NCBI GenBank assembly: GCA_946699065.1
Contig: CAMPDV010002840.1
Location: 1-64,000, forward strand
DNA length: 64,000 nucleotides
Reading direction: 5' to 3'
DNA from: Loxodes magnus
Lineage: Eukaryota; Ciliophora; Karyorelictea; Loxodida; Loxodidae
The position numbers were made by a program, and so were the translations under genes. The number at the start of each line of letters is the position of its first letter. The first letter of the stretch is position 1. Below the pieces are notes generated by a model. The model ran no database searches, was not told where the DNA came from, and saw only the letters and a list, made by a program, of their open reading frames with translations. Below, in pieces: positions 2,466 to 54,873 of the stretch.

Positions 2466-2469
2466 AAAA

Positions 2470-3098: not shown

Positions 3099-3101
3099 GC
3101 C

Positions 3102-4450: not shown

Positions 4451-4451
4451 T

Positions 4452-5470: not shown

Positions 5471-5474
5471 TTAA

Positions 5475-5975: not shown

Positions 5976-6055
5976 TTTGTTTGGCTTTAAAATTTTAAGA
6001 TTAACTAAAATTAAAAAAAATTATTAAGCTAGATTACATCTAAAGCGTTTAAAGA

Positions 6056-6080
6056 GTTAAAGTTAAAGTTAAAGTTAAAA
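6056..6080. repeat. GTTAAA microsatellite
   Basis: The hexamer GTTAAA is repeated about four times here and about twice at the matching place in D2 (near 62227), a copy-number difference between the duplicates. Confidence 0.85.
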
Positions 6081-6135
6081 GATAATTAAAGTGCTTTAGT
6101 TAAGCTACTACATTTAATATCAAAAATAATCTTAA

Positions 6136-7004
6136 ATTAAAGGAAAACTAAGAAGAAAAAAAATGGATTAATCTCTTCGACTCTCAAAAAATTAACTTAG
6201 AAACCTAAAGAGAAAAGCGGCAAAAGAAATTTAGAAAAAATAATAACAATAGGAGGAGTCAAGCTCTTCTTCAGAAGGTAAAATTATGGTAGGATAAATA
6301 GAGATAAGTTAACCTAAAAACGAAACTAATCAAAAACTTTAAATTTAATTAGACCAAATGTAAAAAGTAATCTCAAATTATGAAGAAACAACTTACAACT
6401 TAGGCGAAAAAATACGGGAACTAATGAGTAACATAGAAGATTAGAACAACGAATTACTAATACTTAGAAGATAACTTATTTGTAGCAAATTAATAACGGA
6501 AGAATAACTCTGAACTTAATCATAATAAAATTTTAAATACGACACAAAAATGGAAATAGAAAAAATACCAATAGAATTAAAAACAGAATTGAATCCAGAA
6601 AAAGAAATGATTGCTACAAGTTTCATTAAAAGATTAGAAAATATAGAAAATAAATTATCATAAAAAAGAACGAAATAAAGATAATAATACAAACTTTGTT
6701 ATGTTGCAAATCAAATCAACATATTTTAAAAAACTGTTGATAATGAAAGAAAATAAACGAATAAGAGCAGAAAAGAACATGGAGACAACTCAATAAACTA
6801 TGAATAACTCCAACAGGGATCTACAAATAAAAGCTTTTTGCAAGACCACTCGAACGGTTACAGTGGTAACCTTCCACTTAATAAAAAGGTCGTGAATCAC
6901 ACCCACGTTAAAAAAACTGTCCGCAGGAACTGGTTGCAATTCCAGAGAATGCAAAACTCTACTAACTTTAAGTATATTATTATTATTATTATTAAAGGAA
7001 AACT
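6136..7004 (+). mobile_element. ORF1-only retroelement with target-site duplication
   Basis: D2 has the empty site at about 62295. Here the 14-mer ATTAAAGGAAAACT occurs at both ends (6136-6149 and 6991-7004) around an 841-bp insert. The insert begins 13 bases before an ATG and ends in a (TAT)n/(ATT)n simple-repeat tail (about 6973-6990). A target-site duplication of this size plus a simple tail is typical of target-primed (LINE-type) retrotransposition. It carries a single ORF1-type gene and no reverse transcriptase, so it would need the enzyme in trans. Confidence 0.85.
6163..6988 (+). CDS. ORF1/Gag-like protein with coiled coil and zinc knuckle
   Basis: The frame from ATG 6163 (MDQSLRLSKNQLRNLKRK) stays open to the simple-repeat tail if TAR=Gln and TGA=Trp. 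The TGA at 6511-6513 is in frame and is followed in the same frame by clearly protein-like sequence (MEIEKIPIELKTELNPEKEM). Order of parts: basic start, poly-Gln/Ser patch, coiled coil (IRELMSNIEDQNNELLILR), then a knuckle at 6697-6737. The knuckle reads CY, one missing base, then CKSNQHILKNC, giving CX2CX4HX4C if the lost base is allowed for. Past that base either frame looks coding. Inferred role: RNA-binding chaperone of a LINE-like element. Confidence 0.7.
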
Positions 7005-7009
7005 TTAGC

Positions 7010-7750
7010 TCTTTATAAATAATAAACTTCTCTAGTTTTAATTTTCTAAGTTTCTTTTGTCTATTATAAGCTTATAAGTCTAACTTAATTGTATTTTAAT
7101 TATTAGTTATGTGAACTATAAATAATTAAGTTTTAACTTGTAGATTCTATTATTCAATCTTATATCCAAAATAAAGATGCTATTTAAATACTTGAGGTAA
7201 ATAAATTTACCATAGTTTGCTATTTTAGTGATTAGATCTATATTTCTTTTATTCATTTATTCTAGCTGTGTATCAAGCTCAGTAGTTTACTTGTTTTCTT
7301 TTCAAATCTTTTGTATTTTTCTAATATTTTAAGATAATTTTCATCTAATGTAGTTCATTTAATTATTTTAGTGGAAATATTGCTTAATAATAAAAATAAA
7401 TAGAATGCTAATAAATATATAGTAATAGTATAAGATACCTATTGATTAAGATTAACTTAAGAAAGGAATAATTAATTTATTAGTTACTTTTAAAATACTA
7501 AGCTTCTTAATATTAGTTATATAGCCTTAGTTAAATTACTTATATAAGCTTACTAATGCTATTATTTTTAACTTTAATTTGTATTATAATTTCTTTATTT
7601 AGTTTATAATACTTTATTATTTTAGCTATATACATTTCCTTATAATTAAAAGCATTAATATCTATATATTAGTTAGTGCTTCTTTATCTATTATTAATAT
7701 AGTTTATATTTTAAAGAATGCTAAGAATAATAATTTAAATATAGTAAACT
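7010..7750. other. AT-rich spacer with a possible small minus-strand ORF
   Basis: Mostly A/T words (TTAA, TAGC, AGCTTA). The minus strand between about 7345 and 7220 has a short protein-like stretch (ENYLKILEKYKRFEKKTSK) that I cannot extend into a gene. Nothing else is recognised. Confidence 0.35.
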
Positions 7751-7754
7751 TAAA

Positions 7755-8528
7755 GACTTGTATTATGTCATTTATTTTTAATTCTCTATCTCTCTGCAAA
7801 ATTCAAAGGCTAGTTTTATAATCTCCTAATTTAGCTTAAGATATCTTTAATAATTTTGTGAAATCATTGTTAAAAATTCCTAAGTTCCTTTCTATTAGTA
7901 CATGATAACAAAATTTTATTAGAAGAAATAAAAATTAGCTTTCTAGGTTGCTTTTGGTTTTTAGATGCTTTTATTTGAGTCTTATTTCCTAAATTTTTTC
8001 TTATTCTATCATTAAAGAACTTCCTCTAAATTCTATTTTTTCACTTCCCATCTATTGAACTGAAGGTTGTAGCTCATTCTATGGTCTAAAATTATCTTAC
8101 TTCGTTATTTTTGCCACTTTTGTAATTATTTAATGAGGCATTTCTTTTGTTTTGCGAAGATTTTTCTAATTCTCAAAATCAGAATTCAAACTGATTATAA
8201 TATTTCCTATTTGTTTATTTTATACTTCTTAGATTTTATTCTTAACAGGTATTTTTTGTAGTTTTTTACTCTTATTCTGCTCAATTAATCCTTTTTCACT
8301 TTCAAATAAAAATAATTTCCAATAGCTTCAGTAAACCTTAAAATCTAAATATTTTATTTTTGATGTCTATTAATTTCTTTTTGATTTATGACTTAAAATT
8401 TCTTATTTGCAAATTATAATTGTTATTCTTATTTACTTGCTAAGTCTCAAATCCTTATTTTGGGATAATTTTTCAGTCAGTTTAGATGGAGTTAAGACTT
8501 TAGTGAAGTTTAGAAGGTATTAAAACAT
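7755..8528 (-). CDS. Unknown protein, about 258 aa
   Basis: This is one of the cleanest frames in the window. It runs from ATG 8528 (MFQYLLNFTKVLTPSKLTEK) to about 7755 without a frame change. The composition is balanced, e.g. KIPVKNKIQEVQNKQIG, GSEKIEFRGSSLMIEQE and KISQAKLGDYKTSLW. In-frame TGA codons fall at VYW, SYW-like and SLW positions. I recognise no domain; the centre is charged and may be helical, and a hydrophobic stretch (FLFLLIKFCYHVLI) follows. The D2 copy (63058-63832) has at least four one-base indels that destroy the frame. Confidence 0.55.
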
Positions 8529-8917
8529 TTATTGTTCCCAGTTAAGTCTTTTATTTCTTTAATTTAAATGAAATAGGAATCTTTCTTTTATTTAATAAAG
8601 ATTTATATAAAATTAAAGATATTCAATTAATATATTAATAGAAATACTTTTAGTTAAGAAGTCTTCTACTATTATTATTTTTCTTATTCTTAAAATTATA
8701 CTAATTTCCTTTATCTAAAATTGAGTCTTATTATTATTATTTTAATCCATTCCTTATTTTTAAATAAGATGATATTATGATTTTGCTCTAATGCTTTATA
8801 GCTAAAAGATTAAAATTTAAATTCTATTAAAAGATAACCAAGCAAACTAATCTTCTTAATCTTCTTAATCTAATGAATGTTAAAATTTTAGATAAATCAA
8901 GTTCACTTGAAGGCTTA

Positions 8918-11873: not shown

Positions 11874-13233
11874 ATATTATTCTCATGTACTTATGATGGG
11901 AGTTTCGTCTTATACCCCAATATTGCAGAATTTACAAATTATGATGTGCTATAAAGCAAAACATGAAGTATTGCTGATTAGGAACCGAAAGATATAGAAT
12001 AATAGTAGACTAATAAAATGTATTAAGAGTAAATAATAATCTATTAGATTAGTTTTAAATAGTTTATATTAGCTAATCTAATACTTATATTATCTAATAC
12101 TACAAAGAAACATATTATGTTAAGTTAACTCTTTCTATTAATTCAGAAAATAATAATAGAAGATATTAAAAATATGCTTTCTTAAAAGCTTATAATTTTC
12201 TAAATATCAAACAACTAATTTTAATAAAGAGAGTATTAATAGTGTTAGCAATACAATATAGATTTGTATAGAATAATAGAATTAAGTTTTTATCTTTAAA
12301 TAATCTAGAATAAAGGTATTATTAGATTGAAATGATAATTACAAAAATAACATAAATAATAAATATAATATTAGTTTGCTATAAAAAGAGAAAGTTATCT
12401 AAATGTATTTATTACATTTATATATTTTGCTTAGAATCAACATTAAAGGTAATAAATTATATTAGTTTATTATTTTAAGAGAGACCTTTATAAATAAAAA
12501 GTTTTAATTAAATAATAGTAAGAAAGTGGACAAATAAAAGATTTATCTTATAAATTCTAAAAATACTTTGTTTTAAATAATTTAGAGTTTTTTAATATTT
12601 ATTCAAACTAATTAATAAGAAACTCAATTTTATTTACTTTTTTTTAATTAGTAAAAAGCTTAAAGAAATCCTTTTTTTTAATTAAATGTAAGTGAAAAGT
12701 AATAATTAATAGCAATAGCCTTAAAAAATGCTAATATTTTATTTACCAATTAAAAGAGTCTATAAAGAAATAAGGTATTCTTATTAAGAGTCTTTGATTT
12801 AAAGCACAAATAAGTTGTAATTAATAAATGCATATTAAAGTTATTATAATAGGGATATAAATTCTTCGTTATAAACTTTTGAAATAATAAATTATCCTTT
12901 TATTTAAAAGTAAAAGGATATAAAATAATTAAAATTGTAAAAGTTTGTACATTATTAGTTTTATATATTGTCTTGTTTTAAGACAAAAATAGAAAAATCA
13001 ATGTTTTAGAAGATACTTATAAGTATGCTTAATAAATAATTTAATAGTTTAATTGTATTGAAATTAAGTAAGTAAAATTTATTGAGTTATTTTAATTAAA
13101 TAGTTATTTAAATAAGTTATAAAAATTAAAACGGAGAAAAAAGAAAAGCAATTTACTAAAATTATTTTTTTAAGAAAACTCTTAAGAGCGAGAAGCCACA
13201 TTCTAGGGAAAATATCTCTACTTCATTTTAAGT

Positions 13234-14202
13234 ATGAAATTCTGCCTAACTTATGCTACTAAAAGTTAATAAACAAGATCAGTTATGACCAAAGTAAAGG
13301 TATTTCTTTAATATTTTTTAGATTAAATCCTTACTGTTCATTCTTCAGCTGTGTTATCGTTATCCATATCAAGTGACCTGAATTGAATAGTATCAAGTTC
13401 AGGATATCCTGAAAATTCGATAAAGATCTGGAATTTCCAGACAGGTGCTCTCCAAAGAACTATAACAGGACATACTTCTAATATTTTATCGGTAGTAATA
13501 TCCCCAGACTCTAGATATATTATATCGGGATCTTTCGATAACACGATAAAGATCTGAAATTACCACAATGGAACTCTCTAAAGAACTATAACGGGACATA
13601 CTTCCTCAGTTTACTCGGTAGTAATCTCCCCTGACTCTAACTATATAGTATCGGGATCTTATGACAAAACCATAAAGATCTGAAATTTCCACAATGGTGT
13701 TCTCCAAAGAATTATAACGGGGCATACTAATACAGTTATATCGGTAATAATCTCCTATGACTCTAGATATATTATATCGGGATCTTGGGATACAACAATA
13801 AAGATTTGGGATTTCTAGACTGGCCAGCTTGTGCGAACTCTTACTGGGCATTTAGGTTCTGTTTTATCGGTGATAGTGTCTAAGGATAATAGATATACAA
13901 TATCAGGTTCTGGTGACAGGACTATTAAGATATGGGACTTCTCTTCTGGTTAGTTTATTCGTACTCTTCAAGGTCACGTAGATGGTGTACGTAGTATTCA
14001 GTTAAGTGTTGATTCAAGTGTTATATTTTCTGGTTCATGGGATAAAACAATCAAGATCTGGAACTTTGATAAGGGTGAGTGTATATAGACTTTGTAAGAG
14101 CATACAGATCCAATATCTTCTATAACATTGAGTGTTGATAATAGATGGTTGGTATCGGGAGGACATGACAATACTGTGAGAAAATGGAGCATTTCGAGTT
14201 GA
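13234..14202 (+). CDS. Seven-bladed WD40 propeller protein (copy C)
   Basis: A 322-codon frame runs from ATG 13234 ([13 protein letters not shown]; another in-frame ATG is at 13285) to TGA 14200-14202. After about 30 residues come seven WD40 repeats of the type GHTxxVxSVVISxDSxYIxSGSxDxTIKIWNF. Three in-frame TGA codons lie exactly where Trp belongs (LNW and two KIW), so I read them as Trp. The repeats are much alike within the protein. The family forms beta-propeller protein-binding platforms. No effector domain is attached. The length is identical in copies A and B, which argues that all three are maintained. Confidence 0.9.
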
Positions 14203-14829
14203 GTAACTTGCTATTTGACTTAATTTAATTTTACGATTAAAGATATAAGATATTGATTATTCATTTAAATGAATGTTTAATGGTAATAATGTTTTAAGTT
14301 TTATGAATTTTTTTTAATTTATTTAAAATTTGCTATATTCTTAAATATTATTGGTTTAAAAAAAAGGTTGAGTGATATGTTATAGAAATTAGTGAGGTAT
14401 GTTGATTTAAAGTGGTAATGTTTAAAAAGTATTAAAATATAATTTTGTTAAATGAAAGAATGAAATAAGTTAAAGTTTAAATTTATGCTATAAAATTTTA
14501 TAGATTTATTTTTAGATTTTGTAAAAATTTCAAGTTGAGTAAAAATTTTCGTTTTTTTTTGTGAAGTAGTTAAAATATTATTTATAAGGTTAAAGTTAGT
14601 TTATAATTTTGATTATTAATTAAAAAATTTAATTAAGTATATATTTTATTTTAAATTAAATTAAATTTTGTTTTTTAATTTTGTTTTTTTATGATTGATA
14701 TTTAATATTAATTATTATTATTATTAATTATAATTAATTATTAGTGTTTATTATAATTATTAAATTTTAAAATTTAAGTTTAATATGTTTCGTTTCCGAT
14801 TTGGAAAATTAATTTTTCTGATGGTAAGT

Positions 14830-15760
14830 TTTTATCTTTCAGGTTTAGAGCTTAAATTTCATGAAAACAAAAATTTGTTTTTTGCTCATAGTTTTACACT
14901 ATCAAAGATTTTTGGGACGGAATAAATTTAATTATTTCGGGATAAAAAATCCTAAATAGGAATAAATTTTTTTATTTCGGAATAAAAAAGCTAAAAAGGA
15001 ATAAAAAATACCTAAATAGGAATAAAAAATTTAAAAAATATTTTTATAAAATATTTTTGAAAGCGATTTTTGAAAATATTTGTTGGAAAATTTTTTAAAA
15101 ATTTGTTTTTTTTTAGGAAAATGAATTTTTATAGCTTCCTTTGATTAAAAATTTTTTCGAAAAATTACAAATTTGTTATTTGCTCAGTGATTTATACTAC
15201 CATAGATTTCTGGGACGGAATAAATTTAATTATTTCGGGATGAAAAAAGTTAAAAGGGAATAAAATTTCAAAAAAAATTTCAAATATAAAAGATTTTTGA
15301 AAAAAATAGGAATTAAAAAAATTTTTTAGTATAATTAGAATTTGTAAATCTTCTTTTTAAAATGGTATTTTGTAAAAATGAAAACACTTATTTTTGTTTT
15401 AAGGAAAAATATTTGATTTTTTTTGATTTTAGTAAATTTTTTGTTGCTTTTTTATTTCAAGAAAAAAAATTTGATAAGTTTAATTTTTTTGAAATTAAAA
15501 AAAAAAGCTATTGTTTATGTTTTTGATAAAAATGAATTTTTTTTGACTTGAACTAAAATTAAAAAAATTTTAATTTCTTTTCAAGTAAATGAAAAACTAG
15601 TGATAAAATTTTTTAATTTTATAAGAATTTATTTAATTGAGAAGGATCTCAATTAAAAAGAGAGAAAAGAAAGTAAAGAATGAAATTGGGAAAAATTATT
15701 TTTTATTTTTTAGCTCTGAGTCTTACACTTCAAAAGATTTTCGGGATGGATAAATTAAAA
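14830..15760. repeat. Repeated GC-richer motif downstream of WD40 gene
   Basis: The motif TTACACTACCAAAGATTTT, then an ACGG/GACGG junction, then AATAAATTTAATTATTTCGG and GGATAAAAA occurs near 14894, 15188 and (degenerate) 15715. The same motif occurs in A (27510 and 28000-28050) and B (49970, 50430-50490, 50990-51035). The CGGAATAA...TTATTTCG arms can form a short hairpin with one wobble. Function unknown. Confidence 0.7.
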
Positions 15761-15799
15761 AAAGGGTTAAATTTTTGATAGATATAAAAATTGTTAACA

Positions 15800-16085
15800 A
15801 AGGTTTTTAAATTAAGATATCAAAGATTAAGCTTATGAACTTCTTGACACATTACTAAATAAGTTTGATGAGAATCCACATATACTGAAGGGAAATTTCA
15901 ACACTCTTTTATAAGGTTTTGCATACAATCCTGAAAATAATTTGATAATACATATAAATTATAAGAATTTCTCCTACAAAATGATCTTGAAATAATGAAT
16001 GATAGTAAATTTAAATACATGTATACAAAGAAACTGTATAATTGTGGTGTAATGATTATATCATTATAAGCACCAATTTAAAGTA
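15800..16085 (+). pseudogene. LINE endonuclease fragment
   Basis: The reading DQAYELLDTLLNKF, ENPHILKGNFNTLLQ, then after a frame shift YKLQEFLLQNDLEIMND, aligns with the endonuclease at 18990-19200 (DQAYDYINLLLNQF, NSPHILMGDFNTPLQD). The catalytic Asp of the GDFN motif is changed to Asn. Only this middle part of the domain is present. It lies between the end of segment C and the larger LINE that follows. Confidence 0.75.
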
Positions 16086-18690: not shown

Positions 18691-20720
18691 AATGGATTAG
18701 CAAGTAAACTATATAAAGTAGAAGAATTCATAAGAGAAAATAGTATTGACATTTTTTCAATTAATGAAACTTGGTAAAAACAAGATTTCCCTCCAATATT
18801 AATATAAGGTTATAGGACTTATTGCAAAAATTCAGGAAAAGGAGGAGTGTATGTCTAGTTATTAAAGAAGAATTCAGTAGTACTGAAGAAACTAATATAA
18901 TTGATGTATCCTAGAATCGATTCATCATAGCCAAACTAGATAATATATTTATTACGTTCTGTTACATGCCAGATAATAGCTAAAACGAGAACATAAAAGA
19001 CCAAGCATATGACTATATTAATTTGCTACTTAATCAATTTCCAAATAGCCCACATATTCTAATGGGAGATTTCAATACTCCTCTATAAGATTATGGAGAT
19101 AATCCTAGTAATGACAATGATAATACAAACAGATTCTAGGAATTTCTTATTCAGAAGCATCTTGAAATAGTAAATAATATGAATAGTAACACTTGCATAC
19201 ATAAAGGAACATATTGTAATAAACAATCACCTGAAAATTAATCAATTTGAAAACTTCTAGGTTCATTATAACTAACTATTTACTGATCACATACCAAATA
19301 TGGTAAATTTTCTCTTCAACACAATTCTCTATTTGGACATAATTACCTAAAGATAATATAAAATTAGCAGGCTAAAAGACCCTATTGACAGATAAAAATA
19401 TTAAGAATCTTTTTTTGTAACTTATAATGAATTTTTCAAATTGATAGGAATAATTTAGAGGATTAATACTAATGTATTAAACGCAATATATAATATAATG
19501 CAGATGTAATATTAGGTTCATTTATTCCAGACCCTAAATATAATAAACTTACAAAAGACCTCATGAAGAAGTATATTGAAGTTAAAAGAGCTAATCAAGT
19601 ATATAAAGAAACTCACACGTAGTTTGGAAGAATTAATTAATAAGTAATTCCCTTTTTAAGAACAATTGGTAAGAAGGATATTAATATAGAGATTAAGTAA
19701 CAAAACTATCTGAATGTTACGAAATAGATATTAATAATTAGGAATATAGTAGTAGCTTTAATACTTTTACAAAATATATTAAAAGTAAGATTCAACATTA
19801 ATTTTATGAAGTAACTATTAAAAGACTAAAAAGAATGACCACTGTAAAGTTATTTATAGAATAATTAGAATAATAATAATAATTCCCGTAAATTACCTAT
19901 CCAAAACTAAATAAATAGTATCGAAAAGAAATAATTAGTATATACAAACTCAGAACCTGAAGTTACAATTCTCGCAAGGATCTTTAAGACAGACATTATT
20001 TAGTTGAGAATTCCCATTGTATGTGTGGAGATTTGATTAATTTGAACATATTCTGGAATGCGATTGCTATATAGATATGCGAGAATGGTTAATAGCAAAA
20101 ATTGGAAAATGCGACATTAGAAAATTAATAACCTATGACCAAATTATATCAATTAATTTCCAAAAAACAAATTAGAATACATTTATCTGCAAATTAAAAT
20201 TTTTCATAGGATGTTACTTAAAAGGAGATTAGAATTATTCGAATTAGAAAAAAAACTTATAATAAGAAAGTTCTGAGACTAAGGGTAAAGAAGCGAAAGA
20301 GCAAAATAAAGATGAAGAGAATAATGAAAATAAGGAAGGAAAAGAAGAACAAGAAGAAAAAGATGAGCAAGTGGAAGATTAGAATGAATAAACTGATAAC
20401 GAAGATAATAAAGCTGAAGAAGAAGATGAAGTAGAAAGTTTTTGAGTTGAAAAACTTTAAAAAAACATTATAACAACTTTAATTGAAGGAAGTAATTCCA
20501 ACAATGAAAAGATGTCTCAAGACTCTTTTAGTTAAATTTGAATTTAAGAACAACATGTGTAAGAGAAGGATTTAGATTAGCTATCTATAATTAAATATTG
20601 CACTAGTGTTGGGAATACTAGTTGATTTTTGCCTTTCATTATAATATCAGTAATGCTAGCTCCAATTTAACAAAAAAAATTCTACTTAGTAAAAAGATAA
20701 AAATTACACCATTTAATCTT
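18655..20720 (+). pseudogene. LINE ORF2: endonuclease and C-terminal zinc finger, RT core missing
   Basis: An AP-type endonuclease reads GYVNINGLASKL, DIFSINETW (Asn-Glu-Thr motif), GDFNTPLQD at 19065-19085 and FTDHIPNMV (Asp-His motif). A linker follows (SRLKDPIDRQKYQESF, LGSFIPDPKYNKL). The sequence then passes directly to the ORF2 tail (RKEIISIYKLRT, CMCGD...FEHILECDCY, DMREWLIAKIG) and an acidic tail at 20275-20445. No LPVSL, FADD or other RT motif lies between, so the polymerase is deleted. At least three frame changes occur. The TGA after the acidic tail (ESFW) matches a TGA at the same site in the copy at 25400. Confidence 0.85.
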
Positions 20721-26199: not shown

Positions 26200-28740
26200 T
26201 AGTTAAATTAAATTAAATTTATTAAATCACTTTAAATATTATTATGTTTTGAATATTTAGTATCTTAAATTAAAAATTACTATATTGTATAATAACCAAA
26301 CATTTATTAAAGGAATGTGAAATTAAAAATTATAGTTTAGTTGTCTAATAATTTAGAATAGAACAAAAAATAGCTCATTATTAAGATCATTTATGAAATT
26401 GTGTACTATTAGCATTATTGGCTTAGTAGAAACTTTGCTTTTTATTATGCTATATATGTTTCTTTTTATATTGTACGAAATATTTCCCATTTTTTATAGA
26501 TATAATTATAATAGTTATTAACTTACACTTTGTATATTATTTTAATTATACAAAAGATTAAAGCTTTTAACCTTTTTTGATATAATCAAAACTATATTGA
26601 TTTCTTAATTATTTACACTTTCATTTTGCTAATTCTTATTATTTAATATTAGAATATAATTTTATTCTTATTTTAGATGGAATATAAGATAATTTACAAG
26701 AAAGTGAAGATTTTTATAATTTTGCATATATTCAAATTATTTATATAGTTTACTAGCAAATGCTTTTTATATGATAAATAATCAATCTATTTTTTAAAAA
26801 AGCTTTCAGCTTTAATAAAATAGCTTCATTAGAAATTCAAATTTTAAGATTAATAAATAAAATCGATTTTCTACATGCACAGTAGATATGCTTAAGTTGC
26901 TTATAATCAGAAAGTTTATCTTTAAAGCTTTTCTTTTAATATTACAGAATGAGAAAAATTTTAAAGAGAAAAAATACTTAATATAGCAATTTTTCTTAAA
27001 AACTTGTTTTCCTCTTCTAAATTAACATCTTTTCGCAAACTAAAAACAGATAGTTAGTCGTAGTAAGCTCTTTTCAAAACTCTTTTACTAATCTTAAATT
27101 TTTATAATTATTATAATTATTATAATAAAGCAGAATATTTTTAAACTTGATTAATAAATTTTTGTTTCTATATTTTATATAGTTAGGTTAGATACATTAT
27201 TTAGATCCTTGTTTAATTCCTTTTTTTAGATTCTTTGTAAATTGGCCTAAAATTTATTATTACAGATGTATTTACCTCATTTTTTCTACTTGATTGATCA
27301 TATTTTTATAAAGAGATTTTTTAGCTCTTTTTAGATTAGTTATTTTTAAAAATTTACAATATCCATTAAAAAAATAGTTTTAAGCCCTCTTATAAAAAAA
27401 AATTTTACTGATTTTGTTTCTTCCTAAAATTGTCATTTATTTTTTTATATTTACTTCTTAAAAGTCATTTAAAAAACTTTTCAAATCTTTTAAAATTCTA
27501 TCCTTTAAGAAAAGGATTTATCCACCCGAAATTCTTTTGTAGCGTATAACTCAGAGCGAAAAAAGGATAATTTTTTCACGATTTCATGGTTATTTTATTA
27601 TATCTCCTTTTTTCTTGAGATCCTTTTCATTTAAGTAAATTCTTATAATATTAAAAATTTTAAAACTAATTTTTTCATTTACTCAAAAAGAAGTTCAAAA
27701 TTAAAAATTGTATTTTTTCCAAAGCATAAACAATAAATTTTTTTTATAATTTCAAACATAATTAACCTTATCAAAAATATACTTTTAAATAAAAAAGAAA
27801 AAAGTTTTGATGAAAATTTTTCAAAAAATTTTCTTAAAAACAAAAATTTTTTTTTATTTTTACAAAATACCATTTCGACAAAAAAGATTTCCAAATTCTA
27901 TTTTAATATAAATTTTTTTAATTCCTATTTTTTCTCAAAAATCTTTTATATTTGGAATTTTTTCTTGAAATTTTATTCCTATTTAGGATTTTTATCCCGA
28001 AATAATTAAATTTATCCCGTGCCGAAAATCTTTGGTGGTGTAAAACGATGAGCAAAAAAACAAATTTTTAATTTTCATGAAATTTAAGCTCTAAAATCGA
28101 AAAAATAATGATAAATAAAAAACTTAATATCAAAAAATTTTATAATCCAATCGGAAAAGAAACATATTAAACTTAAATGTTAAAATTTTATAATATCAAT
28201 AAATAATTAATAATTAATAATAATAATAATTAATAATAATTAATAAATAATAATAATCAATCATAAAAAATAAATAATAAAAAAACAAAATTTAATTTAA
28301 AATAAATACTTAATTAAATTTTTTCAATTAATAATCAAAATTATAAACTTACTTTAACCTTATAAATAATATTTTAACCACTTCACAAAAAAAATGATAA
28401 TTTATACTCAACTTGAAATTTTTACTAAATCTAAAAATAAAATCTATAAAATTTTATATGATAAATTTAAACTTAAATTTATTTCATTCTTTCATTTAAC
28501 AAAATTATATTTTAAATATTTTTAAACATTACCCAGTTTAAATCAACATACCTCACTAATTTCTTTAACCTATCACTCAAACTTTTTTTTAAACCAATAA
28601 TATTTAACAATATAACAAATTTTTAATTAATAAATTAAAAAACTTCATATAACTAAAAACATTATTAACATTAAACATTCATTTAAATACATTACCAATA
28701 TCTTATATCTTTAATCGTAAAATTAAATTAAGTCAAATAG
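26200..28740. other. AT-rich flank of block A
   Basis: A/T-rich with two copies of the repeated motif described at 14830 (near 27510 and 28000-28050). A short minus-strand frame at about 26815-27035 matches a slightly longer one in B (49253-49480, MRKDVNLEEENKFFKK). It is shifted here by one base and I give it little weight. No other gene is seen. Confidence 0.4.
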
Positions 28741-28748
28741 CAAGTTAC

Positions 28749-29717
28749 TCAACTCGAAACTCTCCACTTTCTCACAGTATTGTCCCATCCTCCCGATACC
28801 AACCATCTATTATCAACACTCAATGCTATAGAATATATTCCATCTGTATGCCCTTACAAAGTCTATATACACTCACCCTTATCAAAGTTCCAGATCTTGA
28901 TTGTTTTATCCCATGAACCAGAAAATATAACACTTGAATCAACACTTAACTGAATACTACGTACACCATCTACGTGACCTTGAAGAGTACGAATAAACTA
29001 ACCAGAAGAGAAGTCCCATATCTTAATATTCTTGTCACCAGAACCCGATATTATATACCTATTATCCTTAGACACTTTTACCGATAAAACTCAGCCTGAA
29101 TGCCCAGTAAGAGTTCGTACAAGCTGACCAGTCTAGAAATCCCAAATCTTTATAGTGTTATCCCAAGATCCCGATATAATATATCTAGAGTCATAGGAGA
29201 TTACTACCGATCAAACATAGTGAGTATGCCCAGACAAAGTTCTTTGGAGAGCACCATTGAGGAAATTTCAGATCTTTATAGTAGTGTCATCAGATCCTGA
29301 TATAATATAGCTAGAGTCATAGGAGATTACTACTGATCTAACTGAGGAAGTATGCCCCGTTAAAGTTCTTATGAGAGAACCAGTCTATAAGTTTCAGATC
29401 TTGATCGTGTTATCAGCAGATCCCGATACTATATAGCTAGAGTCTGAGGAGATTACTACCGAGTTAACATAATCAGTATGTCCTGTTATAGTTCTTATGA
29501 GAGTACCTGTCTGGAAATTCCAGATCTTTATAGAATTTTCAGGATATGCTGAGCCTGATACAATTCAATTCAGGTCACTTGATATGGCTACCGACTAAAC
29601 ACGTGAAGTGTAACTATTAAGGATTTAATCTATAAAATATTAAAGAAATACCTTTACTTTGGTCATAACTGATCTTATTTATTAACTTTTAGTAGCATAA
29701 GTTAGGCAGAATTTCAT
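28749..29717 (-). CDS. Seven-bladed WD40 propeller protein (copy A)
   Basis: A 322-codon frame runs from ATG 29717 (second in-frame ATG at 29666) to TGA 28751-28749, exactly the length of copies B and C. Seven WD40 repeats are present. Five in-frame TGA codons stand where Trp is expected: LNW, two KIW, HYVWSV and HSGWVLSV. Differences from the other copies cluster just after GHT, just before SV and around SGSxD, while the core (DSxYIxSGS, TIKIW) is nearly fixed. The last two repeats are almost the same as in C. Likely a cytoplasmic protein-binding scaffold; partner unknown. Confidence 0.9.
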
Positions 29718-29719
29718 AC

Positions 29720-31165
29720 TTAAAATGAAGTAGAGATATTTTCCCTAGGATGTGGCTTCTCCCTCTTAAGAGTTTTCTTAAAAAAATACTTTTAGTAAAT
29801 TGCTTTTCTTTTTTCTCCATTTATTTTCTCTCCATTTTAATTTTTATAACTTATTTCAATTTAATTAAAATAACTCAATAAATTTTACTTACTTAATTTC
29901 AATATAATTAAACAATTAAATTATTTATTAAGCATACTTATAAGTATCTTCTAAAGCATTGGTTTTTCTATTTTTGTCTTAAAACAAGACAAAGTATTAA
30001 ACTAATAGTGTAAAAGCTTTTATAATTTTAATTATTTTATATCTTTTTACTTTTAAATGAAAGGATAAATTATTATTTAAAAAGTTTTATAACGAAGAAT
30101 TTATTTCCCTATTATAATAACTTTAATATGCATTTATTAGTTACTACTTATTTGTGCTTTAAATCAAAGACTCTTAATAAGAAAACCTTATTTCTTTATA
30201 GACTCTTTTAATTGGTAAATAAAATATTACAATTCTTTTAAATCTACTGTTATTAATTATTATTTTTCACTTACATTTAATCAAAAAAATTGTTTCTTTA
30301 ATCTTTTTACTAATTAAAAAAATGAAATAAAATAAGTTTCTTATTAATTAGTTTGAATAAATATTAAAAAACATCAAATTATTTAAAACAAAACATTTTT
30401 AGAATTTATAATATAAACTCTTTTAATTGCCCACTTTCTTACTACTATTTCATTAAAACTTTTTATTTATAAAAGTCTCTCTTATAATAATAAACTAATA
30501 TAATTTATTATAATGTTGATTCTAAGCAAAATATATAAATGTAATAAATATAAGTAGTAGAAAGTAAATATTTAAACTAACTATAAATGGTGTATCACTA
30601 ATTATATCTTACAATTATTAAATAGTAATATTTAATTTTATTATTAAAATAAGCTTTAATATGTTTAATTATATCTATTAAATACTTAATATTTTATCCT
30701 TTTAGCTTTATTAGTTATTAATTAATTTCTCTTTAATTTAGATATTAGATTAGTTATAATTAATACATTTAGATAACTTTCTCTTTTATAGCAAACTAAT
30801 ATTATATTTATTATTTATGTTATTTTTGTAATTATCATTTCTAATTAATAATACCTAAATTATTCTAGATTATTTAAAGATAAAAACTTAATTCTATTAT
30901 TCTATTCTTATCCAAAAAACATAGTTACCACTATTAATACTCTCTTTCTTAAAATTAGTTGTTTGATATTTAGAAAATTATAAGCTTTTTAAAGAAAGCA
31001 TATTTTTACTATCTTCTATTATTATTTTCTGAATTAATAGAAAGAGTAAACTTAACATAATATGTTTCTTTGTAGTATGAGATAATATAAGTATTAGATT
31101 AGCTAGTATAAGTTATTTAAAACTAAAATTAAAGCCACTATAAATCCTAGTCTAGTTGACTTTAG
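29720..31165. other. AT-rich flank of WD40 copy A
   Basis: Shared with B and, inverted, with C. The first 120 bases upstream of the WD40 start are well conserved in all three copies and may hold the promoter or an N-terminal extension, because the WD40 frame stays open through them. No other gene is seen. Confidence 0.45.
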
Positions 31166-31169
31166 TCAT

Positions 31170-31790
31170 AAAATTTAAAAAGAATACAGTCTTTAGTAGT
31201 AATAAGAAAGTATTTAAATAAACATAATGAAAGTGAGAAAAAAATTAAACCTACAAGATAAGAGTTTTAAAGCTTAAATTTAAATTTATTAATTAAAAGA
31301 TTTAAGAATATCATTTGCTATCTAGAATGAAATAGCTGCTAAACTTTAATTTTTTTCTGAATAAATTAAAATAATCAATTGCAGCAAAAAGACATGCTTG
31401 ATATTTAAAAAATATTTAAGTTTGCAAGTAGTTACAAATTGGATATTGAGCATGGTTTAACAAGTACTTCTTAAGAAAAATAGAATAACAAAAGTTTTAT
31501 AGAAGAATAAATATTATAGAATTCCAGTGCTTCTAAATAGAAAAAAAAGAAGTCACTAAAATTTAATTAATCAAAGTCTTAAATAAAAAAACTGTGATTA
31601 AATGAGAAATGTACATGTCCAAAGTGGTTGCCAAAATGTCTATTTTGAACTTATAAATCTAAGAATTGTCCTTTTGAAAAAAACAAAAAAATGTAAATCC
31701 TTCTAGAACTAGAATATTCAATGGCTTTTATAAAATTTAGATTGAAATATTCATGCAATAGCTCGAGATTTAAATTCTCGAAGTAGCATA
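31170..31790 (+). CDS. Unknown Cys-containing protein in block A
   Basis: A single frame of about 200 codons reads KIKPTRQEFQSLNLNLLI, MLDIQKIFKFASSYKLDIE, HGLTSTSQEKQNNKSFIEE and a Cys-rich part NEKCTCPKWLPKCLFW followed by YKSKNCPFEK. TGA falls in frame at several Trp-like places (LEWNSC, KLWLNEK, LFWTYK). The Cys cluster suggests a zinc site but fits no pattern I know. The copy in block B (about 54180-54790) has indels and substitutions that break the frame. Confidence 0.5.
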
Positions 31791-32399
31791 ATTTTACACA
31801 CTCTTTAAGTTTTTCAATTTCTTGATTATCTTAAATCATAAATTTTCAGTTACGTTTATTTTTTATTCTCTTAGGATATAAAAAATTGCTGTTTTTTCTC
31901 CAACTTTGCAATATCTTAGATTGAATTTGCTACTTCATTCACTACACTATTCAATAGGCATAAATTTAAATCCCAAAACTACAACATTCATACTTTAGTC
32001 TCTTGAAAACATTATCAGTCTAATCCTTTAAAGCTCTATATGCTTAACTTCCCTTTTCTTAATTTAAATCATATTACACTACTTTGATTTCCTTATATCT
32101 TTAAGCTAAAATAAACCTAAAATATTAACTCCCATAAAAAAGCATTAAAGCTAGATTTTATTTTTAAATTAGTTTAATATACTTATTAGCAAATATCTTG
32201 TAAATAAAAGCTTAGAATGAAATATATAGTATATTTAAAGGTTTAATGTATCTTGTTAGTTTATTAAGATACATAAATAAGAAGTATTATACAGAATTAG
32301 GCTATCTTTAATTAAAGATACTGAGTCTAGTAATCTTAATAATATATTAATTTAACTAGTAATGCTCCAATAAATAATCAATTAAATACTTTAATGGAT

Positions 32400-43559: not shown

Positions 43560-46240
43560 TTAATTCTTTAGATATTTTGTCAAGCTTCTCGAATTTTCTA
43601 TCATATACTGTTTTTAACAAAAGAATTATCTTTTAAAAATCTTCCAAGAAATCTAGTTTACTTCCTTTAATCTTTAATTGTAAAAGAATCATAGATTTAA
43701 TCAGGTTTTTTTAATAGCTCTTTATTCAAATTTTTAATAGTAAAGTACTTCTCTTTAGGATATTGTTGTTTGTACTAACTGATCTCTGGAAGTCCAAAAT
43801 CCAGAGCTTTATAGCATATTATATTTTCATAAATTCATAATTTTTTTTAATCAAGCCTTATTTTTATTGTTTTATTATAAATTTACAAAATTAAAACAGA
43901 ATTATTTTCTTAATTTTTTAAAAGTAAAATTATAATAAAAGTTAGTCATATTATTTTTAATTTTTAAATAATTTTATAGTACCAAAATTTTATATCCATA
44001 CTCAAATAATTAATAGTTAAAAAATCAAAGTAAAAATAATTTAAAGTTTATGCTTTTTATTTATTATGAAAAATTTGACTGTTGCTAAGCTAAAATTATT
44101 TTAGATTGCATTATATCTTTTAAGGTATTAATTTAAATTTCAATGAATTTGTTTTTTAAATTCATATTCTCAAACTTACTTCATATTCGACATTTTCTTG
44201 ATGCTTTTATTCGCCACTATTTTCTCAAAACTACAAATTACTATTTGAATGGAAGATATCTATTGTAATTCTCTCTAAATTCACTCCTATTTATATTTAA
44301 ATTATATACTTACCTTCTTTTATACTTAACCATCTTTAAGATCTTGCAATAATTTTGAATATTTCACTTCCTTATCTATTTCTCTTATCCTCCTGATATT
44401 ATTCCTTTTATATCTCCAGTCAGCACTAATTCGTAAATTTCTCCCTAATGTCCTCGTAATAATATTAACCTTTCATCTGTTTAGAAATTCCATATTTTAT
44501 AGTGTTGTCATATGATCCAGATATTATAAAATTATTATCAGTTGCTATTACTAACATTCTCATTAAATTTGTAGCAATAAAGTTTTTATGTTTTTTTTGT
44601 TGAAAAGTTTCATATTTTGATTGCTTTTTTCATGACATCCAGATATTATTAATTTTTTTCATGAATTAATACCATTATTCTTATTGAATCTTGATATCCT
44701 TAGAGAGTTCGAATACATTAACCAGTTGAAAAATTTCATATCTTTATAGTTTAATCAGAACTTCCCGAAACAATTCTTTTGTTACCACTACCGATCTAGC
44801 ATAATTCATGTGTCTCATCAAAGTGCTTTTTAAGGTCACATTCAAAAATTCTCATACTTTTATTGTACTAGCATAATTTCCCGAAACTATTTATTTTTTA
44901 TCCCTCTTTACAGCTATCGATAAAACTTCACTCGCTCGTTCGGTCAAAGTACTCTTATAGAAATCACTCAGAAAATCCCAAATCTTTATAGTCGAATCAT
45001 TACTTCCTGATTATTTCTAGTCACTCGTGTCCGCTATCGAATAAATTCAATCCATATGTTTCAGTAAAATATCAAGAAATTAGAGCAATTCAATTACATC
45101 TTAGTTTAATTTACTCCATTTAAATTGCAGTTGGTTAGCTTCCCATTCCTTAGATTGACCACTTATAAATTTGAGTTTCTTAGATTACAATCTTGAAAAT
45201 TTGATTCATTCAATTAGCACCTTAGATTCTTATTCCCTCAAATCTTTTTTATATAAAATTATAGTTAAAACATTTTAAGATTGCTATCGCATTTGCAGAA
45301 GCTTATTCTACTTTGATATCAGCCTTAGATAATTCTATGACATCATTCAATTTTTTTTTATCAAACCTTAACTTGGTAACTGTTTTAATTTAATCAAAAT
45401 ATCTTAACTATTACATATGTTAGAAAAATTTAAAGGCTTTTCTTGCAAATTAGCATTTTTCAAAACTTTATTTTAAAATTTTTCTAATAATTAAGCAACA
45501 TTCTCTACTGTTAATAATGTAAAATCATATTTAATTTATTATTTAAAATATTTATTTAATATATCTGTAATATTATAATGTTATGGATTTTAATTCTGCA
45601 CTTTTCCGCAATAAAACTCATAATGAAAAAATAATTTTAATTAACTGATCTGAAATTTAATTAACATTTACTTCTTCATTTTAACTTAGTTATATTTCTA
45701 AATCATTATCTTTATTTGCTCATACTGCTGTTTATCTATATTTACTATCTATATATTTCTTCTTGTTACTATCTAGTTTATGATGGTAAATGTAATGTTT
45801 TTTCTAAATTTAAATTATTTCTTCGATTTTTCTTATATTATTTTATAATTCCCTCTAATATTATTTAAGGTTTGAAGTACATACTTAATTGATGATATTA
45901 GAAAAGAGTTTTTAGATCATCACTAAACTTTAATGAAGTTAATTTACTATATCTTTTATTATTTTAATATTTGCAAATAATTCTATAAATTTTCATTTAG
46001 TTTTGCTTGTTATTGAAATTCACTATGCTCTTCTCAAATTTTCAGTTGAAATCTAGTCTTTTAACTCAGATATTTAGCCTTTAAATATTTACTAATGTGT
46101 TTTACAAAATATTTATTGAGCGATATAAGGCCAATTTTAATACACTTTGAACACATTAAGCAATTACATTGAAGTATCTTAGGAATTCTTTTCTAAGAAC
46201 CAAATTATTTTTTAGGACTTTTATAATTTTACTAATCCAT
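43560..46240 (-). pseudogene. RING-like, coiled-coil, pentapeptide and WD40 protein, decayed
   Basis: From ATG 46240: MDQQNYKSPKKQFGSQKR, then IPKILQCNCLMCSKCIK, which resembles the first half of a RING finger. A coiled coil follows (KIWEEHSEFQQQAKLNENLQ), then a helical linker (VENVAQLLEKFQNKVLKNA; DVIELSKADIKVEQASANAI). GIRIQGAN and pentapeptide repeats come next (LNESNFQDCNLRNSNL), then several WD40 repeats down to about 43760 (SGSYDNTIK, STIKIWDFL, IKLW). The ANAI...GIRIxGA block before the WD repeats is typical of STAND/NACHT-WD40 proteins, although no NACHT P-loop was found. Several frame changes show decay. Confidence 0.6.
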
Positions 46241-46835: not shown

Positions 46836-46839
46836 AAAT

Positions 46840-47128
46840 TTCTCTTTCGAGGGACTGGAAACTCCTTTCCAGCTAGACGACTCAGGGCACTCTCTCAATG
46901 CATATAGAGAGGATATCCTGTTGCTTAATTCAATAAGCATCAGTCAGGTGTTCCATAACTAGGAACCGACAGTCTTCAAGTTGCTAGGAAGAGTGGATAA
47001 TCGGAAAGATTTTGTTTTCCTGCTGAGAATGACTCTAGCCATGGACCTTCTCAGTGGATAGGAACTTGACCTTATCCAAAATGCTAAAAGGTTTTATGAG
47101 AATCAACTTCAGCTCCCATCATCTTTTT
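46840..47128 (+). other. GC-rich island: foreign ORF or structured RNA
   Basis: By eye about 45% GC inside about 20% GC surroundings. The plus strand reads FQLDDSGHSLNAYREDILLL, TVFKLLGRVDNRKDFVFLL, MTLAMDLLSGQELDLIQNA and FYENQLQLPSSF, with two in-frame TAG codons. The minus strand also has a protein-like frame (STEKVHGQSHSQQENKIF; LVMEHLTDAYWIKQQDIL). Consecutive short hairpins are present, the best being CTGGAAA/TTTCCAG near 46855 and CTGAGAA/TTCTCAG near 47020-47055. I cannot decide between a horizontally acquired coding fragment and a structured RNA. Confidence 0.5.
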
Positions 47129-48395: not shown

Positions 48396-50419
48396 TGTTA
48401 GAATTTTTTTAATTATAATTCCTCTTATTTCTGTTTATCTTATAAAAGGATTGATTTTAAGAGTTAATTTTTTATCTTTAAATAATCTAACAATTTTTCA
48501 GACATTATGAAAACATTAATTACAATCTTTAATCATAAATAAAATAGATCAATGAACAAAAAATAATAACTATTTTTAATTAGAAAATGAATATTAAAAC
48601 ATTTTAATTTAATTTCTTGATAAGATCTTTTAAATTTAAATTAGTTGCTTTTTTTTATTTATTTTAAATAAAGCACTTTAAATATTATTATATTTATGAA
48701 TATTTAGTATTTTAAATTAAAAATTACTATATTGTATATTAAACCAAACATTTATTAAAGGAATCCTTAAATTATCAATTATAATTTAGTTGTCTAATCA
48801 TTTAGAATCAAACTAGCTCATTATTAAGGTTCTTTATGAAATTGTGTACTATTACCATTATCGGCTTAGTAGAAACTTTGCTTTTTATTATGCTATATAT
48901 GTTTCTTTTTATATTGTACGAAATATTTCCCATTTTTTATAGATATAATTATAATAGTTATTAACTTACACTTTGTATATTATTTTAATTATACAAAAGA
49001 TTAAAGCTTTTAACCTTTTTTGATATAATCAAAACTATATTGATTTCTTAATTATTTACACTTTCATTTTGCTAATTCTTATTATTTAATATTAGAATAT
49101 AATTTTATTCTTATTTTAGATGGAATATAAGATAATTTACAAGAAAGTGAAGATTTTTATAATTTTGCATATATTCAAATTATTTATATAGTTTACTAGC
49201 AAATGCTTTTATATGATAAATAATCAATCTATTTTTTAAAAAGCTTTCAACTTTAATAAAATAGCTTCATTAGAAATTCAAATTTTAAGATTAATAAATA
49301 AAATCGATTTTCTACATGCACAATAGATATATTCAAGTTGCTTAAAATCAGAAAGTTTATCTTTAAAGCTTTTCTTTTAATATTACAGAATGAGAAAAAT
49401 TTTAAAGAGAAAAAATACTTAATATAGCAATTTTTCTTAAAAAACTTGTTTTCCTCTTCTAAATTAACATCTTTTCGCAAACTAAAAACAGATAGTTAGT
49501 CGTAGTAAGCTCTTTTCAAAACTCTTTTACTAATCTTAAATTTTTAATATTTTTATAATTATTATAATAAAGCAGAATATTTTTAAACTTGATTAATAAA
49601 TTTTTGTTTCTATATTTTATATAGTTAGGTTAGATACATTATTTAGATCCTTGTTTAATTCCTTTTTTTAGATTCTTTGTAAATTGGCCTAAAATTTATT
49701 ATTACAGATGCATTATACCTCATTTTTTCTACTTGATTGATCATATTTTTATAAAGAGATTTTTTAGCTCTTTTTAGATTAGTTATTTTTAAAATTCGCA
49801 ATATCTATTAAAAAGGTAGTTTTAAGCCCTCTTATAGAAAATTTTTTTAACTAATTTATTTCTTCCTAAAATTGTAATTTATTTTTTTATATTTACTTCT
49901 TAAAAGTTATTTAAAAAACTTTTCAAATCTTTTAAAATTCTATCCCTTTAAGAAAAGGATTTATCCATCCCGAAAATCTTTTGTAGCGAAAAAAGGATAA
50001 TTTTTTCACGATTTCATGGTTATTTTATTATATCTCCTTTTTTCTTGAGATCCTTTTCATTTAAGTAAATTCTTATAATATTAAAAATTTTAAAACAAAT
50101 TTTCTCATTTACTCAAAAAGATGTTCAAAATTAAAAATTGTATTTTTTCCAAAGCATAAACAATAAATGTTTTTTATAATTTCAAACATAATTAACCTTA
50201 TCAAAAATATACTTTTAAATAAAAAAGAAAAAAAGTTTTGATGAAAATTTTTCAAAAAATTTTCTTAAAAACAAAAAAACTTTTTTATTTTTACAAAAAA
50301 CCATTTCAACAAAAAAATTTCCAAATTCTATTTTAATATAAAATTTTTTTAATTCCTATTTTTTCTCAAAAATCTTTTATATTTTGAATTTTTTCTTGAA
50401 ATTTTATTCCTATTTTAAA

Positions 50420-51165
50420 ATTTTTTATCCCGAAATAATTAAATTTATTCCGTGCCGAAAATCTTTGGTAGTGTAAAACGCTGAGCAAAAAAACAAATTT
50501 TTTATTTTCATGAAATTTAAGCTCTAAAATTGAAAAATAATGATAAATAAAAAACTTAATATCAAAAAAATTTATAATCCAATCGGAAACAAAAAATATT
50601 AAAATAAAAATAAAAATTTATTATTGAACTTAAATACAAGAATAAACAAATTTAAATAAATTTATTTACATATAACTTAAAAAATTAAATAAACATCCCA
50701 AAATTCAAAATTTTTTTAGTTTTAAGTCTATTTAAACAAAACCCTTTTTTACATATTAAAAAAATGTATCCCGTCCCAGAAATATTTACCAAAAAAAGTT
50801 TTCAAAAAAATTCCTTAAAAAAATTTAAAGATTTTTAAAATTGATTTCCAAATTTAATTTCAAAAACGATTTTAGATAATTATTTTCGAAATTATTTTAG
50901 AAACGCTTTTCTAAGAAATTTTAAAAACTTTTTTAAAAATTACTTTCAAAATTTTTATTCCAATTTTATAATTTTTTATCCCGAAATAATTAAATTTATT
51001 CCGTACCGAAAATCTTTGGTAGTGTAAAACGCTGAGAAAAAAACTAATTTTTTATTTTCATGAAATTTAAACTCTAAAATTGAAAGATAATGATAAATAA
51101 AAAATTTTATATCAGAAAATTTTATAATCCAATCGGAAACGAAAAATATTAAACTTAAATGTTAA
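50420..51165. repeat. Tandem duplication inside block B
   Basis: About 190 bases around the motif (TTCCGTGCCGAAAATCTTTG, then GTAATCCAATCGGAAAC-like sequence) occur at 50425-50605 and again at 50985-51150. Unrelated A/T-rich DNA lies between them. Block A has one copy at this place. Confidence 0.8.
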
Positions 51166-51746
51166 AATTTTATAATATCAATAAATAATTAATAATAAAT
51201 AATAATAATAATTAATAATTAATAATAATTAATAATAATCAATCATAAAAAATAAATAATAAAAAAACAAAATTTAATTTAATTTAATTTAATTTAAAAT
51301 AAAATAAATGCTTAATTAAATTTTTTAAATTATAATCAAGATTATTAACTTACTTTAACCTTATAAATAATATTTTAACCACTTCACAAAAAAATGAAAA
51401 TTTATACTCAACTTGAAATTTTTACTAAATCTAAAAATTAATCCATAAAATTTTATAGCATAAATTTAAACTTTAACTTATTTCATTCTTTCATTTAACA
51501 AAATTATATTTTAAATATTTTTAAACATTACCACTTTAAATCAACATACCTCACTAATTTCTATAACCTATCACTCAAACTTTTTTTTAAACCAATAATA
51601 TTTAACAATATAACAAATTTTTAATTAATAAATTAAAAAACTTCATATAACTAAAAACATTATTAACATTAAACATTCATTTAAATACATTACCAATATC
51701 TTATATCTTTAATCGTAAAATTAAATTAAGTCAAATAGCAAGTTAC

Positions 51747-52715
51747 TCAACTCGAAATCCTCCACTTTCTCACAGTATTGTCTCTAGCTCCCGATACCAA
51801 CCATCTATTATCAACACTCAATGCTATAGAATTTATTGCATATTTATGTCCTTATAAAGTCTAGATACACTCTCCTTTATCAAAGTTTCAAATCTTGATT
51901 GTTCTGTTATCAGAACCAGAAAATATAACACTTGAATCAACACTTAACTGAATACTTGATACATAACTTGAGTGACCTTGAAGAGTACGAATAAACTAAC
52001 CAGAAGAGAAGTCCCATATCTTAATAGTACTGTTAACAGAACCTGATATTATATACCTATTATCCTTAGACACTTTTACCGATAAAACTCAGCCTGAATG
52101 CCCAGTAAGAGTTCGTACAAGCTGACCAGTCTAGAAATCCCAAATCTTTATAGTTTTATCCCAAGATCCCGATATAATATATCTAGAGTCATAGGAGATT
52201 ATTACCGATATAACTATATCAGTATGTCCAGACAAAGTTCTTTGGAGATCACCATTGAGGAAATTTCAGATCTTTATAGTGTTATCGTAAGATCCCGATA
52301 CAATATAGCTAGAGTCTGGGGAGATTGCTACCGAGGTAACTCTAGAAGTATGTCCCGTTATAGTTCTTAGGATAGCACCAGTCTATAAGTTTCAGATCTT
52401 GATGGTTGAATCACCATATCCTGATACTATATAGCTAGAGTCTGAGGAGATTACTACCGAGTTAACTGAGGAAGTATGTCCTGTTAAAGTTCTTATGAGA
52501 GCACCTGTCTGGAAATTCCAGATCTTTATAGAATTTTCAGGAAATCCAAAACCTGATACAATTCAATTCATATCACTTGATATGGCTACCGATAAAACAG
52601 GTGAAGAGTAACCAGTGAGGGCTTAGTCTAAAAAATATTAAAGAAATACCTTTACTTTGGTCATAACTGATCCTATTTATTAACTTTTAGTAGCATAAGT
52701 TAGGCAGAATTTCAT
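51747..52715 (-). CDS. Seven-bladed WD40 propeller protein (copy B)
   Basis: A 322-codon frame runs from ATG 52715 (second in-frame ATG at 52664) to TGA 51749-51747, the same length as copies A and C. Seven WD40 repeats are present. Five in-frame TGA codons occur, all at Trp positions: MNW, three KIW and HSGWV. The KIWNFD site is TGA here but TGG in copies A and C, a silent difference if TGA is Trp. Variable residues again sit after GH, before SV and in SGxxD. A standard-code frame at 52098-52370 on the other strand is a shadow of this gene. Confidence 0.9.
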
Positions 52716-54790: not shown

Positions 54791-54873
54791 AGTAGCATAA
54801 TTGTACACACTCTTTAAGTTTTTCATTTTCTTGATTATCTTAAATCAAAAATTTTCAGTTGCATTTATTTTTT

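Follow-up and report, generated by a model that had tools for sequence, protein, structure and literature searches.

The WD40 repeats of the Podospora anserina proteins HET-D and HET-E are reported to be subject to positive selection at codons 7, 9, 25 and 27 and to purifying selection at codons 8 and 26 (PMC1805685, PMC2873952, PMC12222747). HET-D, HET-E and HET-R (NWD/HNWD) are described as having repeats of 42 residues, which number about 11 with a variable count, are more than 80% identical and are exchanged to some extent between family members. For fungal NLRs in general, PMC4986451 likewise describes a sensor made of repeats whose variable contact sites are positively selected. A further group, the highly repetitive WD40 propellers, which were amplified from single blades, was gathered by requiring a median identity of over 60% among the blades of a protein (PMC9218822). 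At the level of single residues, those termed R1-2, R1 and D-1 (residues 16, 18 and 34 in G-beta) are WD40 contact hotspots and are described as generally needed for top-face binding (PMC3419727).

The window, i.e., the whole 64-kb stretch of Loxodes magnus DNA that was analysed, has a G+C content of 21.6% and contained no ORF of at least 100 aa when read with the standard bacterial code. Reading TAA and TAG as Q and TGA as W or stop (table 27) revealed three WD40 genes of equal length (969 nt), each an intact ORF.

13234-14202, + strand: WD40 copy A, 969 nt, intact ORF
28749-29717, - strand: WD40 copy B, 322 codons and TGA in table 27
51747-52715, - strand: WD40 copy C, 969 nt, intact ORF

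The repeats of each copy held three to five in-frame TGA codons and five or six TAA/TAG codons, and the final 46 codons before the terminal TGA were TGA-free in A, B and C. Condylostoma-type codes would be compatible with this codon usage as well. In the karyorelict code, as described in PMC11441545, UGA is read as tryptophan upstream and as stop near the end, and the three genes, the only ones considered, fit this description.

The three copies are parts of duplicated segments, and a fourth, degenerate relative lies between B and C.

26223-32267: segmental duplication with copy B; its partner with copy C is at 48669-55376, in three pieces, 92-94.5% alike
12049-15830: inverted, more diverged duplicate segment with copy A, in pieces 74-94% alike to the B and C segments
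44309-45335, - strand: degenerate relative D, a pentapeptide-repeat stretch followed by WD40 repeats over shifting frames

Relative D is probably a pseudogene of related but distinct architecture. The repeats of A, B and C differed at 12.1% (A-B), 14.6% (A-C) and 11.4% (B-C) of nucleotide sites, and flanking blocks (up to about 0.9 kb upstream and about 0.4 kb downstream) at 1.8 to 9.9%. For the B-C pair, every flanking block examined differed by 0.5-7.3%, in comparison with 11.4% in the repeats. A general statement that repeats were more diverged than flanks in all pairs was dropped, since copy A beyond 14600 was 12-30% diverged from B and C, much of this flank at least as strongly as the repeats, and the repeats of A exceeded the flanks only close by, as far as 12420 on the 5' side and 14600 on the 3' side. 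All seven repeats were open and free of gaps in A, B and C, whereas many gaps were present in both flanks.

The PF00400 profile detected seven WD40 stretches in each copy (E 2.7e-80 for B), which in copy B were arranged as follows.

29612-29481, - strand: repeat R1
29480-29355, - strand: repeat R2
29354-29229, - strand: repeat R3
29228-29103, - strand: repeat R4
29102-28977, - strand: repeat R5
28976-28851, - strand: repeat R6
28850-28752, - strand: repeat R7

Counted from the His of GH, R2-R6 were 42 residues long, with two extra residues in R1. Because R7 stopped after 33 residues, the strand preceding R1 would close the propeller ring. The AlphaFold2 model of B, calculated from B together with 20 further sequences, namely copies A and C and 18 proteins from the database search, had a mean pLDDT of 92.7 and a pTM of 0.88, with residues 1-21 below a pLDDT of 50. 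The structures nearest to the model were WD40 propellers, seven-bladed ones included, namely the prokaryotic domain 5yzv, the design v13WRAP-T (7big, seven-bladed) and the highly repetitive 2ymu; among the lower-ranked structures listed, WDR5 chains gave TM 0.87-0.89 at about 34% identity. By profile matches and predicted fold, A, B and C were confirmed as each encoding a seven-bladed WD40 propeller.

In the protein search, 7991 candidates were scored, 7168 of them at E ≤ 0.001. Among the 120 matches listed, those named by organism were mostly cyanobacterial, with a few from other bacteria, one archaeal and two fungal; none of the 120 was named as a ciliate, although many carried no name. A separate search with residues 1-48 alone gave no match, and no relative encoded on viral contigs was found. 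Among these matches there was no close relative of the three genes. The best relatives in both the protein and the PDB searches were the highly repetitive propellers, mainly bacterial or fungal (2ymu, WRAP designs), and in the alignment with the 18 protein-search matches the same loop positions were variable. Unlike the propellers collected by the identity threshold quoted above, A, B and C lay just below 60%, with a mean amino-acid identity between the repeats of one gene of 56% (R1-R6), and their notable variation was that between paralogues at fixed positions. The fold is also shared with WDR5-type seven-bladed adaptors. WDR5 is a conserved protein with a fixed face, and the contact residues of its WIN site occupy positions equivalent to the variable ones of A, B and C; unlike in WDR5, the face was the fastest-changing part of the three copies. 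A ciliate precedent for hypervariable WD40 families was not found among the titles and abstract openings listed from open-licence papers.

The sequence-only reading had proposed that the copies differ chiefly at the positions that vary in the fungal non-self recognition repeats. When the His of GH was numbered as position 1, the Podospora codons 7, 9, 25 and 27 corresponded to positions 4, 6, 22 and 24, a register checked against het-E-2 (S, W, D, K; table of PMC2873952) and a HET-E repeat in PMC12222747. Amino-acid differences among A, B and C were present in 24 of the 28 slots at these positions in comparison with 50 of 259 elsewhere, a clustering beyond chance (P=2.7e-12), and all three copies differed from one another in 11/28 and 4/259 slots, respectively. 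Out of 111,930 sets of four positions, two reached that count, positions 4, 6, 22 and 24 being one of them. The 35 codons before R1 were excluded from these slots and the two extra codons of R1, both invariant, were counted in the 259.

The individual sites named earlier were mostly found to be variable. This applied to the two residues after GHT (SN/DY/SS in R2 and NT/HY/DI in R4), to the residue before SV, which is position 6 (L/N/N, Y/R/T and I/W/I), and to the residues flanking Asp in SGSxDx. The residues after IWN (positions 31 and 32), also named as hypervariable, varied in only 4 of 14 slots, with omega of 0.77 and 0.50, so that the clustered variation among the three copies is real with these residues excepted. 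Positions 2, 3 and 9 were also often variable (4/7, 4/7 and 5/7 repeats), with omega values of 1.5-1.8, indistinguishable from 1. Of the codons between the variable ones, the residue of codon 5 was changed in 1/7 and that of codon 23 in 3/7 repeats.

The faces of the propeller were assigned from the strand order of R3 in the B model. In this model, the d-a connection (positions 42 and 1-4) and the b-c connection (22-24) are predicted to lie on the same side of the propeller, with positions 11-15 and 31-35 on the opposite side and position 6 in strand a. Variable slots made up 31/55 of the top-side loops (31/57 when the two extra R1 codons were included) and 13/68 of the bottom-side loops a-b and c-d (P=3e-5), a contrast resting mainly on positions 4, 22 and 24, because with these three removed the top loops retained 13/34 variable slots against 13/68 (P=0.053). 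The spacing of positions 4, 6 and 22 (+2, +16) was the same as that of R1-2, R1 and D-1. The variable sites thus appear, as modelled, in top-side loops or at the start of strand a and not scattered, which agrees with the earlier suggestion that they share one face.

Selection was evaluated by fitting a codon model to the three copies, all from one assembly, with a star tree of three branches. The estimated omega was 4.9 at positions 4, 6, 22 and 24 and 0.39 elsewhere. Fixing omega=1 at the four positions resulted in a loss of 22.4 lnL units (P=2e-11), and omega=1 was still rejected when branch lengths were free per repeat (P=9e-13, on a coarse grid with kappa fixed). The site-wise omega reached 8.4, 6.8, 4.4 and 2.8 at positions 4, 6, 22 and 24 (P=2e-8, 3e-6, 1e-4 and 0.013), and these were the only 4 of 42 positions with omega above 1 at nominal P<0.05; the P value of position 24, which was named in advance, is nominal and would fail a correction for 42 tests. 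At positions 5 and 23, equivalent to Podospora 8 and 26, omega was 0.26 (P=0.07) and 0.62 (P=0.39), and purifying selection there is only suggested. The pairwise dN at the four positions was 0.67, 0.91 and 0.81 (A-B, A-C and B-C) and dS over the remaining repeat codons 0.155, 0.252 and 0.149, whereas dS from the four codons alone was 0.32-0.58, giving a purely local ratio of only 1.4-2.5. These values point to positive selection of the HET-D/E type at positions 4, 6, 22 and 24, subject to the caveat of a mutation hotspot considered below.

Concerted evolution had also been suggested on the grounds of repeat-to-repeat similarity. Comparison of R1-R6 showed that the same repeat was 87.1% identical between different genes, whereas different repeats were 59.7% identical within one gene and 59.6% between genes, with different repeat positions 46-86% alike at the DNA level. 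Gene-wide concerted evolution is unsupported because the repeats are orthologous by position. Two repeats nevertheless stood out by their divergence.

51855-51971, - strand: R6 tract of copy C with 22 polymorphic sites in a row, A and B identical and C different
13471-13596, + strand: R2 of copy A, the most diverged repeat of A, branch length 0.336

The run of 22 sites (13978-14094 in A coordinates) spanned almost exactly one blade, and its length was reached in 0 of 20000 shuffles. The C branch had a length of 0.284 in R6 in comparison with 0 to 0.113 in the other repeats. A second run, of 15 sites grouping B with C, was located in the 3' flank (14256-14378, P=0.0002), and the longest A-C run comprised 5 sites (P=0.08). 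Among the other repeats of the window there was no good match as a donor for the C R6 tract (best 12 of 23 private sites) or for A R2 (best 12 of 21), and in codons 26-37 of A R2, 7 of 9 private sites carried the base common to all three R3. The C R6 tract reads as roughly one blade brought in from a donor that was not found in the window, and the exchange looks like an occasional import of a whole or part blade. Because donors for the imported tracts were lacking in the window, we infer that the family has further members beyond the copies present here.

The three genes thus resemble the HET-D/E/R proteins in the 42-residue WD repeats of similar consensus, in the same four selected codons (for HET-D/E) and in that members of the family have exchanged some of their repeat sequence. 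Unlike the Podospora proteins, they have a constant number of repeats, seven, which are positionally orthologous and 56% identical on average within a gene; the exchange is only local, and repeats are not homogenised irrespective of position as in HET-D/E. They also use a non-fungal genetic code, and no NACHT or HET domain was detected beside them. The domain search covered three coding-strand frames in unspliced reading around A, B and C. No NACHT, NB-ARC or HET match was obtained in some 2.3 kb of upstream sequence, with E up to 1, or in 2.2 kb of downstream sequence, with E up to 0.1. The matches that did occur were below the curated cut-offs and judged to be due to chance: MlrA_C upstream of A (0.0022) and C (0.072) but not B, zf-CCHC_4 upstream of C (0.14) and 3keto-disac_hyd downstream of A (0.04). 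Unlike in fungal NLRs, a nucleotide-binding or effector domain was not detected near the three genes, and because NACHT and HET were not among the matches, the likeness concerns the sensor repeats and not the whole protein.

The sequence pattern, the omega contrast, the predicted fold and the mosaic tracts are, in our judgement, fairly probably explained by a family of free-standing WD40 binding proteins that is diversifying, with a scaffold under purifying selection, a top face driven apart and blade import helping, which together would constitute a repertoire of faces. A, B and C would be intact members of a locally duplicated family of free-standing seven-bladed propellers, in which the scaffold may be held by purifying selection, the top-face contact residues (4, 6, 22 and 24) of nearly every blade may be driven apart by diversifying selection and variation may be added now and then when a single blade or part of one is imported from a sister gene. 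Most likely, each copy would present a different binding face to changing or diverse protein ligands, as in a recognition repertoire. The variable face presumably binds ligands, and these may be non-self or otherwise antagonistic.

Adaptor function is the usual role of WD40 propellers. If a scaffold protein, e.g., a substrate receptor or a cytoskeletal adaptor, was duplicated and each duplicate was selected for a different cellular partner, with no arms race involved, this would leave the same sequence signature and would be in keeping with the lack of a detected immune-type domain near A, B and C. We regard such an adaptor origin as unlikely, since all three pairs differed strongly at the contact sites (dN 0.67, 0.91 and 0.81) while their scaffolds were alike, and the presence of three copies within 40 kb fits a recognition repertoire somewhat better than settled adaptors.

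Less credence is given to relaxed constraint, in which exposed surface residues would drift freely in redundant duplicates. The variability of the same positions among other WD40 proteins (consensus of the 21 aligned sequences) speaks for such drift. Drift, however, gives an omega of at most 1, and 4.9 was obtained relative to the synonymous rate within the repeats; at positions 4, 6, 22 and 24, dN was about 2, 3 and 11 times the divergence of the most diverged flanking block of the same pair (A-B, A-C and B-C); and the bottom-side loops, although also exposed, varied in only 13/68 slots.

A dedicated or template-driven process could also mutate or overwrite the loop codons more often than other codons, the result being under little selection. 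A hotspot model with a 4.1-fold rate and omega=1 had an lnL of -1849.74 in comparison with -1848.83 for selection, i.e., it was worse by only 0.9 units, and a combined model with hotspot and selection, applied to three sequences, retained omega=1 (P=0.10). Moreover, among the 84 codon pairs at positions 4, 6, 22 and 24, 38 showed two or three base differences. With three sequences, there is no formal way to tell selection from codon-targeted mutation. Of the earlier proposal of selection on a binding face, the match to the HET-D/E positions and the top-side location stood, and the dN/dS test gave a ratio above 1 provided that the synonymous rate is uniform; the test did not set selection apart from a hotspot with omega=1, which fitted nearly equally well. 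Codon-targeted diversification is nonetheless considered very unlikely, as it must strike four separate codons in repeats as diverged as reported above and change the residues of the codons in between less often. No synonymous excess was seen among same-residue pairs of the four codons either (0/11, 1/8 and 0/6), although these numbers are small. Diversifying selection is preferred because separate codons in seven diverged repeats carry the excess, because the in-between codons show less of it and because it has no synonymous counterpart. Adenine-directed mutagenesis, of the kind known for diversity-generating retroelements, was rejected, as by inspection the changes at the variable codons affect every base and each of the three codon positions.

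That the WD40 copies are passengers of a repeat-rich segmental duplication with no current function is hardly credible: the window does hold large repeats and an endonuclease-reverse-transcriptase relic, and relative D is degenerate, but all seven repeats are open in the three copies with a scaffold omega of 0.39, and they are indel-free between flanks with many indels.

Within the preferred reading of a diversifying family of binders, a broader proposition can be put forward, conceivable but doubtful, that free-standing seven-bladed WD40 receptors arose in a ciliate as a genome-wide repertoire, separately from the fungal systems and with no NLR chassis. Single-blade gene conversion and positive selection would diversify their binding face one blade at a time, and they would serve self/non-self or parasite recognition in a single-celled organism. 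If the pattern were family-wide, the same four contact positions of the WD40 blade would have been put to use for diversification both in fungi and in a distantly related protist, the top face of the propeller would be a general evolvable recognition surface, and the family would offer a specific candidate for variable recognition among unicellular eukaryotes.

The start of the three genes is uncertain, because a conserved GT-AG stretch of 22 nt precedes R1.

29630-29651, - strand: candidate GT-AG mini-intron just upstream of R1, copy B
13300-13321, + strand: the same, copy A
52628-52649, - strand: the same, copy C

This stretch, conserved in all three copies, is likely, though not proven, to be a mini-intron, and its length fits the karyorelict introns, for which PMC11441545 gives a mean of 19.3 and a mode of 17 nt. 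If it were spliced, the repeats would no longer be in frame with the ATG at 29717, and exon 1 would be read in another frame; the N-terminus would then differ and the repeats would be unaffected. A candidate upstream ATG in the alternative frame was present in B and C and absent from A. The 5' flanks of all three copies also contained a conserved, nearly palindromic stretch, GTCTTGTTTTAAGAC, located at 12970-12984 (+ strand) in the case of A and at the corresponding sites 5' of B and C.

Outside the WD40 genes, no tRNA (scan with bacterial settings) and no Rfam family at the gathering score were detected in the window. Its ends, 1-8696 and 55530-64000, form a large repeat of about 8 kb present twice in direct orientation, in three pieces of 97.6-98.8% identity, and no Pfam match at E ≤ 0.01 was obtained in six frames over 1-8800. 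An endonuclease-reverse-transcriptase domain (PF14529, E 2.4e-8) was found at 18948-19202 (+ strand) and is probably a relic of a LINE-like element. An isolated island of 41.6% G+C was located at 46838-47128, with no Rfam and no plasmid match. It ends in TTTTT on the + strand and, relative to shuffled sequences, folded better on the - strand (z -2.6) and not clearly so on the + strand (z -1.4); it may be a structured RNA of unknown type or an insertion of foreign DNA.
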